DNA of 38,077 bases from Solobacterium sp. GTDB taxonomy: Bacteria; Bacillota_I; Bacilli_A; Erysipelotrichales; Erysipelotrichaceae. Made by a program: the position numbers and the translations under genes. This document shows, piece after piece, positions 8,879 through 14,780 of the stretch (position 1 is the first letter of the stretch; every line of letters begins with the position of its first letter). Under the pieces are notes generated by a model, which saw nothing but the letters and a program-made list of their open reading frames with translations, was not told the origin of the DNA and did no database searches. The stretch is from contig JAILQT010000056.1 in the NCBI GenBank assembly GCA_024698805.1, forward strand, positions 1 to 38,077, written 5' to 3'.

Positions 8879-10750
8879 TCACAGCAGGTTATCGCAGATG
8901 AGGATCACATCGTCTTTTTCCGTAAATTCAACCTGGGCTGAACTGCCGGGATTGATCTGGATCGTAAAGCTGCCGTCGCCTGTGAATTTCTTGTATCCGA
9001 TGGCGATCTCGTTATTACGTGCAGCAGACGCCTGGAGCGTATGGAATGAAACAGGTCTGCCGGTCTGTACATAGCGGGCAGCGGGTTTCATGTAGATACC
9101 GGATCCGCCTTCCGACAGGAGGCTGTTCAGGATATCCTTTGTCTGTCTCTGCTCGGAGATGTGCGCCATCATCCTGGCAGCGATCCGGCTGCTTACAACG
9201 AAGTCTGTCCCGCGCATCATCTGGGAAAGCTTCTGATTGTGGGTGCTGTTCATTTCGATGATCAGCGGGACATCGGCGCCGATCTGTGCGGAAATATCCG
9301 TCAGCAGCAGCTGCAGCATGAGTGTTTTCGCATCCGCTTCTTCAGCTTCCAGCCTGGTGTCGCTTAACAGCAGGATGCCCGAGGGATTCTCCGCACAGAG
9401 TTTCTCCAGCGTGTTCCGCCGGTATATACTGCATTCCCGAACTTCCGTACGGATATTGGTAAGTGTACTGAGATCGGGCAGCGCATCCATATCGAGCGCA
9501 CCTTCTTCTGCAGCGATAATGACCCTGGATCCCGCAGGGGCGTACGCATTTTCCTCGATGAGGATCTGCCGCAGCAGATCGGAACTGCCCAGTATGAGCA
9601 TTGTGTCCGGGTCGGTCCCTTCTTCCTGTCCATATGCGAAAACAGATTCATCCGGTTCTGCCGCGTCCTCAAGCCGGATACCGTTATCATCTTCCGCGAT
9701 AACGATCAGACTGTCGTCTTTTTCAACCTTTACGGCAGGGTCCGGATTGAACAGCAGCTCCCCGCTGCGGAGGATACCGACTGCACAGATATCCGGCAGC
9801 CGCTGGTTGACCTCTGCCAGTGTATATCCGGCAGCGGGTGCACCGTCCTCGACATAGATCTCATTGCCCTTGAAGCTGAGCAGCTGCGAGAGGATCTCCG
9901 ACATGCCGGGATGACGTCCTGCCTGGACCATGAGACGTGCCATGGTCTTGTGGAAATTCAGGATCTCCACCCGCTGACCGCCGGCGATCTTTGCCGGCTG
10001 CAGGACTTCCCTGTCACGGATCACAGCCGTTATATATGCGGCATCGTTATCCGTTTCATTCAGGAGTTCCTCACAGGCAAGGATCGTCTTCACACACATA
10101 AAATCATCTTCAAGGTTGACGATGACCGACCGGCAGGTATCCAGTGAACATACTTTCAGATCATGGACGGAATCCGGCCTGCCGCTGCGGCATATGATCC
10201 GGAGGCTGCCGGTATCATCGATCTCATCACGGATGGTATCCTCCATATCCGTTTTATCATGATCTGCCATGATCACGCAGCATGCGTCATTTTTGTTTTC
10301 ATTGGCATAGATCAGTTCCCGGATGATCTCTGTCACATTCTCATCAAAGCCGAGTATGACCGTATGTCCCTCCTCAATGACAGATGACCTGCCCCGCTGC
10401 AGCTGGACTAGTTTTTCCTTGATCGCATTGGATACGGTACCGATCAGGAAACTGGTGATGAAAATGCCGACAAATGTGACAATCGTCATAACAAACAGGT
10501 AGGCTACGGTACCTTCCTCCTTGGCAAGGACACCGCTTGAAAGTGCGTGCATGAGTGTGAACCAGATGGTCGACCCTGCCGAATTCCCGCCGGACCCGTC
10601 CGGTCCGCCCAGGGCGATGGCCGCAAAGGCCCCTGCCAGAACGGTAACGGCGGTGATCACGGCAAGAATAAGCAGCAGGGACGGTGTGCCTTTTGACATG
10701 AGATTGTCAAAACGGTAGCTGAGGCGCTTGCGCAGTGATGTTTTTTTCAT
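8879..10750 (-). CDS. CASTOR/POLLUX (SYM8)-type ion channel / TrkA-N domain membrane protein
   Basis: N-terminal TM segments (LLLILAVITAVTVLAGAFAAIALGG...VAYLFVMTIVTFVGIFITSFLIGTVSNAIKEKLVQLQRGRSSVIEEGHTVILGFDENVTEIIREL) followed by RCK/TrkA-like regions. Confidence 0.85.
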   Translation of the reverse strand: MKKTSLRKRLSYRFDNLMSKGTPSLLLILAVITAVTVLAGAFAAIALGGPDGSGGNSAGSTIWFTLMHALSSGVLAKEEGTVAYLFVMTIVTFVGIFITSFLIGTVSNAIKEKLVQLQRGRSSVIEEGHTVILGFDENVTEIIRELIYANENKNDACCVIMADHDKTDMEDTIRDEIDDTGSLRIICRSGRPDSVHDLKVCSLDTCRSVIVNLEDDFMCVKTILACEELLNETDNDAAYITAVIRDREVLQPAKIAGGQRVEILNFHKTMARLMVQAGRHPGMSEILSQLLSFKGNEIYVEDGAPAAGYTLAEVNQRLPDICAVGILRSGELLFNPDPAVKVEKDDSLIVIAEDDNGIRLEDAAEPDESVFAYGQEEGTDPDTMLILGSSDLLRQILIEENAYAPAGSRVIIAAEEGALDMDALPDLSTLTNIRTEVRECSIYRRNTLEKLCAENPSGILLLSDTRLEAEEADAKTLMLQLLLTDISAQIGADVPLIIEMNSTHNQKLSQMMRGTDFVVSSRIAARMMAHISEQRQTKDILNSLLSEGGSGIYMKPAARYVQTGRPVSFHTLQASAARNNEIAIGYKKFTGDGSFTIQINPGSSAQVEFTEKDDVILICDNLL

Positions 10751-10782: not shown

Positions 10783-10827
10783 AAAAAGAGACTTTCACAC
10801 AGACAAAACATCTGCATAAAAGTCTCG
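10783..10827 (-). terminator. Intrinsic terminator overlapping the 3' strand of the riboswitch aptamer
   Basis: Minus strand GAGACTTT-TATGCAGATGTTTTGTCTGTGTG-AAAGTCTC-TTTTT with inner CAGA/TCTG stem; sequesters the GCGAGAC segment of the aptamer. Confidence 0.8.
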
Positions 10828-10920
10828 CTTCTTACAACATATTCCGGGGATATTCAGTCCCGTACTGACGATAATATGTTACACATGACGGTGCAAGCTA
10901 CTCCCTGATACGCTTTTTAT
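10812..10920 (-). ncRNA. Candidate yybP-ykoY (Mn2+) riboswitch aptamer upstream of the CASTOR/POLLUX-like gene
   Basis: Minus strand GCGUAUCAGGGAGUAGC...AACAUAU-UAUCGUCAGUA-CGGG...CCCG-GA-AUAUGUU...GCGAGACUUUUAUGC. Conserved-looking GGGAGUAGC, CGUCA and GCGAGAC elements; P1, P2 (UUGC/GUAA), P3 and a small CAC/GUG hairpin can form. Confidence 0.72.
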
Positions 10921-10993: not shown

Positions 10994-11899
10994 CTACAGT
11001 TCGATCAGTTCATATTCCCGTACGCCCATGCCGAGGCGGTCAGCCACTTCGACCGTGTATTCCCCGTTCCTGGTCGTGACCCTTTCCATGAAATGGTCCC
11101 TTCCCGGATCCTTCGACGCCTTTACAAGATCCAGGCATGCCTGGTCGATCGCGACCGGGTCGGTCGAGATCAGGATGCCGATATCCTTCAGACAGGGGTC
11201 TTCCGCAACAGCACAGCAGTCGCAGTCGACCGACATATTGACCATGGCGTTTACGAACACCATGTTCCCGTTGAAGTGATCCGTTACTGCCGAAGCTGCT
11301 TCCGCCATCGATTCCAGGAAGGCATTCTGGGGCGGCAGGTCGCCCCATACGACTGCCTGCTCTTCCGCACTGCGGTATTTGCCGGCAGAGTGGATGTTCA
11401 CCTTTCCCGCACAGGAGGCACAGCCGATCGACAGCTGCTTCAGGGCGCCGCCGAAGCCGCCCATCGGATGACCCTTGAAATGGGAAAGAACAAGCATTGA
11501 ATCATAGTTCAGGATGTTTTTGCCCATGATGTCTGAAGCCAGGTGTCTCTCATGCTGGCCGTAGCGGCTGATCGCAAATTCGATATCCGGTCCTTCCGCA
11601 TCCATCAGGTCCACATTGAAATAATCGTTCCAGCCGTGTCTGCGGATCAGGCGTATATGCCTGTCCGTATAGTTTCTTTCCCCTTCATAGGCGGTATTGC
11701 ATTCCACCACGGTCCCGCCGACATGATCGATGATTGGTTTCCAGAACAGCGGCTTCAGGAAATTCTGATTGCCAGCTTCCCCGGAATGGACCTTTACGGC
11801 GACCCTGCCGGTCAGTTTCTTTCCGAGTTTTTCGTACAGTCTGATAATGTTTTCCGGTGTGATTTCTGTTGTGTAATAGATCTTTGATACTGAACCCAT
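10994..11899 (-). CDS. DUF362 domain-containing protein
   Basis: VKVHSGEAGNQNFLKPLFWKPIIDHVGGTVVECNTAYEGERNYTDRHIRLIRRHGW...LVLSHFKGHPMGGFGGALKQLSIGCASCAGKVNIHSAG is typical DUF362. Confidence 0.85.
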   Translation of the reverse strand: MGSVSKIYYTTEITPENIIRLYEKLGKKLTGRVAVKVHSGEAGNQNFLKPLFWKPIIDHVGGTVVECNTAYEGERNYTDRHIRLIRRHGWNDYFNVDLMDAEGPDIEFAISRYGQHERHLASDIMGKNILNYDSMLVLSHFKGHPMGGFGGALKQLSIGCASCAGKVNIHSAGKYRSAEEQAVVWGDLPPQNAFLESMAEAASAVTDHFNGNMVFVNAMVNMSVDCDCCAVAEDPCLKDIGILISTDPVAIDQACLDLVKASKDPGRDHFMERVTTRNGEYTVEVADRLGMGVREYELIEL

Positions 11900-13695: not shown

Positions 13696-14780
13696 CTATC
13701 TCTTGATATCGTAATTCATATTCATCAGGTTCCGGATCGATTCCACATCGTCGACGATATTCCCGTCGCCGTGGATCGTATGCTTGATGACGCTTGATGC
13801 GACCGCGAAATTGATCATATCCATCGGTTTGTAATTGTTCATCATCGCGTAGATCAGGCCGCTGGCAAACGCGTCGCCTCCGCCTACCCTGTCGAGGATA
13901 TTGAACGTGAACTTCTTGCTTTCAAAGGTATGGCCGTCATACCACATATACGCCATCAGGCTGTTCTCGCTGCCGGAATGCGCATAGCGTACATGGCGGG
14001 CAATGCATTTGATATTGGGGTATTTCTCAATGAATCTCTGGAAGACCTCATCCTGGTCCTCATAGCTCGGATGCATGGACAGGCCGTCCTTGTAATCGCC
14101 TGCAGCCGGATCATCGTCATTCTTATAGAGATGATACGGTTCGATGCCGAACAGTACGTCCACATACGGCAGGCACTGCGTGCAGTAGTCGCGCGCTTCA
14201 TCCCAGCCCCACAGTTTTGAGCGGAAATTGCCGTCGAAGCTGACTGTCAGTCCTTTTTCCTTCGCTGTTTTCATCAGGCGGAGGATGAACTCGCGGCAGC
14301 TTTCGCTGAGAGCCGGCGTAATGCCGCTGAGGTGGAGCCAGTCAAAACCTTCCAGCAGTTCGTCCGCGTCGATCACCGAGAAATCGAATTCCGAGATCGC
14401 GCTGTGCTTGCGGTCATAGGTGACCCTGGACGGACGGATCCGTATCCGGTCTCCAGATAATAGACGCCCATCCTGTGCGTCGGTGTCTGTTCCGGGGTGG
14501 AGAGGATGATCGGCGTGCAGTGCACATCGTTGCTTCTGAGCATGCGGACAGCGCTCTTGCCGAGTGAATTGTCCGGGACGACACTGAAGAATGTGCTGTC
14601 CACTTTCAGGTTGGCAAGGGCCAGGGCGATATTTGCCTCGGATCCGCCATAACTGATCTCAAAGTTTGTAGCCACCCGGATCTTGTCATAATTCGGCGGT
14701 GTCAGGCGCATCATGACTTCACCGAACGTGATGAACTTCTTTCCGGGGGATGCGGTCAGCAGAGGATTATGATGTTCCAT
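13696..14780 (-). pseudogene. kdgK: PfkB-family 2-keto-3-deoxygluconate kinase-like gene, frameshifted (second kdgK copy)
   Basis: N-terminal ORF 14373-14780 (KKFITFGEVMMRLTPPNYDKIRVATNFEISYGGSEANIALALANL) and C-terminal ORF 13696-14376 (FNILDRVGGGDAFASGLIYAMM). The frames join if one base is restored near 14442, giving ETGYRIRPSRVTYDRKHSAISEFDFSVIDADE. Confidence 0.85.

Follow-up and report, generated by a model that had tools for sequence, protein, structure and literature searches.

In the yybP-ykoY riboswitch of L. lactis, Mn2+ stabilizes the helix P1 and thereby gives antitermination (PMC11087558), and the nucleotides G9 and A41 contact Mn2+ (PMC9190785). A three-way-junction riboswitch that responds to both Ca2+ and Mn2+ is reported for pneumococcal mgtA (Martin 2019, as cited in PMC9495176 and PMC7674665). 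The Streptococcus RNA SSRC10 was reported as a small RNA with a terminator and in S. pyogenes is located upstream of a putative calcium transporter gene (PMC3675131), and the leader preceding a Ca/Mg ATPase gene of S. agalactiae has already been named yybP-ykoY, with regulated termination (PMC4448216). The leader analyzed here lies in a window of 38,077 nucleotides, i.e., the whole stretch of Solobacterium sp. DNA under study, and very probably (about 0.85) represents a riboswitch of the yybP-ykoY (Mn2+) class that acts on transcription in the ON direction and has the P4-less three-way junction. The class, its mechanism, and the three-way-junction form were already known; as far as the open-licence literature searched extends, the wide distribution of compact elements among the Erysipelotrichales, the failure of RF00080 to return them, and the CASTOR-like channel as a target are new.

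Layout and conserved fold of the leader

The leader is situated between a DUF362 gene (10994-11899) and, on the minus strand like all the leader parts described below, a gene for a CASTOR/DMI1-like RCK channel (8879-10750), whose ATG at 10750 is preceded by the ribosome site GGAGG (10760-10756). The sequence features listed in the sequence-only reading were all present on the minus strand at this site. The promoter and the helix P1 had been overlooked there: a sigma-70-like promoter, TTGACG-18 nt-TATGAT (10951-10922), was recognized as a consensus match only, with 10/12 consensus positions and a TG before the second hexamer, and from it transcription would be expected to start just ahead of the aptamer. 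Elsewhere in the window (13696-14780), a PfkB sugar-kinase gene is seemingly split into overlapping frames, 13696-14376 and 14373-14780, which adjoin an intact PfkB gene and uxaC.

The compact aptamer spans 100 nt (10913-10814) and comprises P1, P1.2, P2, and P3 without P4. The 5' strand of the switch helix P1 (GCGUA..AG, 10913-10905) pairs with 10822-10814 and shows compensatory changes across relatives, while the helix in the window contains a UC/UU mismatch. On the 5' side of loop L1, formed by GGGAGUAGC (10905-10897), GGGAGUAG faces GCGAGAC beside P1, as the yybP-ykoY class requires; GCGAGAC itself (10828-10822) forms the 3' side of P1.2, L1, and P1 and is common to the terminator. The P2 hairpin (GCAC...GUGU, 10894-10881), with both-side changes in 3/4 pairs, is followed by the P3 hairpin (10880-10836), in which the AACAUAU/AUAUGUU stem (10880-10869 with 10846-10836) encloses CGUCAGUA in an asymmetric internal loop. 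This loop, L3 (UCAGUAC, 10868-10862), displays the class feature of an asymmetric P3 loop of the CGUCA or UCAACA type with an invariant A, here A10866, which corresponds to A41 of L. lactis. A junction linker of 5 nt (10835-10831) occupies the site of P4 in four-way members.

The leader fold was more stable than that of all 200 shuffles (z -3.7), chiefly owing to the terminator. A blastn search of 100 related genomes identified five relatives of the leader (71-82% identity, E 7e-25 to 7e-4), which show that the leader is more than a chance arrangement. All of them carry GGGAGUAG, the CGUCA loop, and the AGAC strand, behind which lies a terminator-like hairpin, and substitutions in their stems are compensatory. 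The genes following them encode a channel, a CitMHS/ArsB-type permease (in two cases), a Na/Ca exchanger, and a CNNM protein. Comparison of the window with these relatives, by which P1, P1.2, P2, and P3 were drawn, revealed both-side changes in 10/29 pairs. RNAalifold arrived unaided at the same helices from 81 further copies, with compensatory changes in 22/25 pairs, although the alignment given to it had been fitted to the model. The counted positions were paired in 90.5% of cases versus 64% in shuffles, with 677 versus 205 both-side changes, and the structure was well above slid controls as well. The unconstrained minimum-energy fold, pairing GCGUAU with AUAUGU, was ruled out by this covariation.

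Conservation extended to the loops. The L1 core GGGAGUA was unchanged in 124/124 aligned copies, and AGAC and the L3 adenosine were likewise invariant in 81/81. P4 was absent from 121 of the 124 copies, the window included, and the linker between P3 and P1.2 measured 5 nt in 116 of them; in three copies (L040, L041, and L044) a 13-nt linker is able to form a small hairpin. Because a three-way-junction member has been published for pneumococcal mgtA (PMC9495176), P4 is taken here as typical of the yybP-ykoY class and not as defining it.

Terminator and proposed switching

An intrinsic terminator, GAGACTTTT...AAAGTCTC followed by TTTTT, has a stem of 17-18 bp (10826-10788) and a T-run reaching 10783. 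As had been proposed, it overlaps GCGAGAC, and it also shares bases with P1. One such terminator was found, against 0.2 expected in shuffles. The hairpin (-21.5 kcal/mol) occupies the bases of GAGAC and of the P1 3' strand, and the two pairings are therefore mutually exclusive. With the aptamer enforced the fold reached -21.3 kcal/mol, versus -41.6 kcal/mol for the terminator fold; the latter is far more stable by energy alone, and switching must therefore be co-transcriptional. The same overlap recurs beyond this locus, as a T-run hairpin starting in the GCGAGAC region was found in 106/122 copies and overlapped AGAC in 104/122, whereas the controls yielded 10 in shuffles and 12 in downstream sequence. 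The former count was 85/122 when the start was limited to GAGAC and rose to 106/122 when the interval was widened by five bases.

By analogy with L. lactis, the switch would operate in the ON direction. At low levels of the divalent cation, GAGACUUUUAUGC would pair with GUGUGAAAGUCUC further downstream, and transcription would end at the T-run without reaching the channel gene. At high levels, the metal would bridge loops L1 and L3, and their docking would stabilize P1, which would then retain the GCGAGAC strand, so that no terminator could form and the channel would be made. The counterparts of the two Mn2+-contacting nucleotides of L. lactis, G9 and A41, lie in the invariant GGGAGUA and in the L3 adenosine (PMC9190785). 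We infer that the RNA binds a metal, that this metal is Mn2+ (possibly also Ca2+), and that the channel would serve in divalent-cation homeostasis.

Covariance models and class membership

A covariance model, R1, was built from the window and its five relatives, and it found the element in 200/297 Erysipelotrichales genomes (E<=1e-3 per genome; about 0.3 expected by chance). The search with RF00080 suggested in the sequence-only reading gave a different outcome: Rfam returned no match above threshold on the window, and RF00080 was not listed for the 301-base stretch searched even at E<=10. At its gathering score of 45 bits, RF00080 found nothing in the window's own genome, and the cut-off was reached by 0/297 genomes of the order and 0/397 of the class. 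At E<=1e-3 it matched 25/297 genomes of the order, several of these matches overlapping those of R1 (G227:C11, G186:C91, and G035:C223), and MntP-type copies scored 28-37 bits with E down to 6e-9. The E. coli elements also fell short, with mntP (L192:3462-3558) at 41.6 of 45 bits and alx (L203:2370-2468) not listed at E<=0.5. Because mntP, alx, and all 397 genomes of the class miss it as well, the gathering score constitutes a weak test of membership. With 200/297 genomes matched by R1 and none by RF00080 at its cut-off, the failure on the window owes more to the library model than to the element itself. The RF00080 structure line, in the part displayed, is without P1. Most Mn-type riboswitches of an entire order of gut bacteria are missed by the standard library. 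The remaining Rfam matches at this position, including mir-488 and SSRC10 (13 bits), were at chance level for the window alone.

With a second model, R2, built solely from Erysipelotrichales copies, the mntP and alx elements of E. coli each came out as the best match of their region (E 0.007 and E 0.23, respectively), and the P4 of mntP was placed as an insertion within the 5-nt linker. On the strength of this ranking and this placement, the yybP-ykoY class is a single family whose members either have or lack P4. The window's own membership is supported through relatives that bridge to RF00080, SSRC10, and the E. coli elements. The proposal of a yybP-ykoY-type riboswitch was in this way borne out by the 200 genomes found with R1, by covariation, by the invariant L1, L3, and AGAC elements, and by the ranking of mntP and alx with R2.

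SSRC10 aligned end to end with one copy, L005 (34 bits, E 4e-5), and also with copies of the wider class, the matched loci including L185, L187, L188, and L189. These alignments, together with its calcium-transporter context and the yybP-ykoY leader of S. agalactiae, suggest that SSRC10, listed as a small RNA family, is probably the terminated product of a compact yybP-ykoY riboswitch.

Controlled genes, the ligand, and comparison with known systems

The channel assignment was supported by Pfam Castor_Poll_mid (1.3e-19) and by matches to the solved structures of CASTOR (PDB 6o6j, E 1.9e-48) and DMI1 (1.3e-39). The element was found upstream of 3/8 close channel orthologues (59-67% identity), namely the window gene, RUG12927 (L051), and RUG11214 (L053), and was absent before the other five (L048, L049, L050, L052, and L054) and before about 28 more distant channel paralogues. 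The expected conservation of the leader in orthologues was thus seen in 2/7 further close ones and not in 5/7. The five orthologues and about 28 paralogues show that the riboswitch does not accompany the channel family in general, and what survives of the proposed tie between that family and Mn2+ is a link that is real but narrow. Through it, bacterial CASTOR/POLLUX-like channels gain a candidate physiological input, divalent-cation excess. The channel gene also turned up in MAGs whose labels denote widely differing bacteria, and therefore either the gene or the labels must be mobile.

Among the 122 copies whose gene context was inspected, 115 precede ion-transport genes. The following gene encodes a P-type cation ATPase in 39 cases, a Na/Ca exchanger in 28, and MntP in 20, and the rest comprise CNNM (11), Na/Pi (8), CitMHS (6-8), and channel (3) genes. 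Genes for calcium or other cations hence follow most copies and outnumber MntP. The association of the class with genes for Mn2+ or cation export is present, and the window's own gene encodes a channel, not a known exporter. The controlled genes for Na/Ca exchangers, CNNM, Na/Pi, and CitMHS proteins and the channel become candidates for Mn2+/Ca2+ handling. Several individual contexts were also recorded. The window's genome holds a second copy (G000:C55:18420-18516; L047:1921-2017, minus strand) before a DUF6054 gene, with no clear terminator, and in L020 (G127:C44, minus strand) two adjacent Na/Ca exchanger genes each have their own copy (297-397 and 1501-1599). Single copies precede a membrane protein gene that is flotillin-like by eye with no Pfam match (L118), a YibE/F-like membrane protein gene (L151), and a TetR-like regulator gene (L130); these three are possibly new regulon members or chance associations.

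These contexts bear on the identity of the ligand. It is unlikely, though argued for by several observations, that the same RNA and mechanism serve chiefly a Ca2+ signal, in a calcium branch controlling Ca2+ ATPases, Na/Ca exchangers, and the CASTOR-like channel. Of the 122 copies, 67 stand before genes for a P-type cation ATPase or a Na/Ca exchanger, the CASTOR channel of plants is selective for Ca2+ (PMC6697748), and the three-way-junction mgtA aptamer of pneumococcus reportedly binds Ca2+ tighter than Mn2+ (PMC9495176); the same review, however, has mgtA transcription activated more by Mn2+ than by Ca2+, and the adenosine that contacts Mn2+ through its N7 is invariant. The loop L3 points in the same two directions. 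It is of the UCAACA type in 19/20 MntP leaders and of the CGUCA type in 57/58 leaders of Na/Ca exchanger, CNNM, Na/Pi, CitMHS, and channel genes, with P-type ATPase leaders mixed, but both types also occur in E. coli, UCAACA in mntP and CGUCA in alx. Since alx is a Mn2+ exporter gene, CGUCA does not mean calcium, and the L3 type alone is not diagnostic of the ligand; it may merely track the ancestry of the leaders, and common ancestry is the simpler reading of the pattern. It is quite doubtful that, within the class, the P4-less CGUCA-type elements of the Erysipelotrichales make up a branch responding to Ca2+ or to Ca2+ and Mn2+ jointly. If such a branch did exist, bacteria would possess a calcium regulon under RNA control that comprises P-type ATPases, Na/Ca exchangers, CNNM exporters, and the CASTOR-like channel.

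A related fold switched to another ligand is very improbable: non-MntP genes, among them Na/Pi and CitMHS transporter genes and a single DUF6054 gene, do follow most copies, but neither L1 nor the L3 adenosine varies, and the copies found with MntP are members of the same family. It is scarcely credible that the element works without a ligand, either as a constitutive attenuator or as a small RNA that ends at the terminator. Although the Streptococcus relative SSRC10 was described as a small RNA with a terminator (PMC3675131), aptamer loops distant from that hairpin do not vary, P1 shows covariation even though it overlaps the terminator, transporter genes stand directly after the copies, and the S. 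agalactiae Ca/Mg ATPase leader has already been named yybP-ykoY, with regulated termination (PMC4448216).

The Mn2+-class riboswitch in compact form, the preferred reading, can be set against three described systems. SSRC10 (RF02617, "Streptococcus sRNA 10") shares the motifs, the order of stems, the lack of P4, and the overlapping terminator; it differs in its description as a small RNA, and the window scores just 13 bits with it, against 26-43 bits for the window's relatives. The Streptococcus mgtA riboswitch, as described in PMC9495176 and PMC7674665, has in common the three-way junction, the terminator platform, the compact length, and a cation-transport gene; its downstream gene is a different one, and it was compared only via SSRC10, with which it was equated by gene context. 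The yybP-ykoY riboswitches proper (RF00080; L. lactis yoaB, E. coli mntP and alx, X. oryzae) differ in their four-way junction, the crystallized aptamers containing the P4 that is missing from the three-way junction of the window, and the window is unmatched by the RF00080 model and controls a CASTOR-like channel. With these it nevertheless shares L1 (GGGAGUA/GAGAC), the invariant A of L3, the order P1-P2-P3, the competition between P1 and the terminator, and the control of metal-transport genes.
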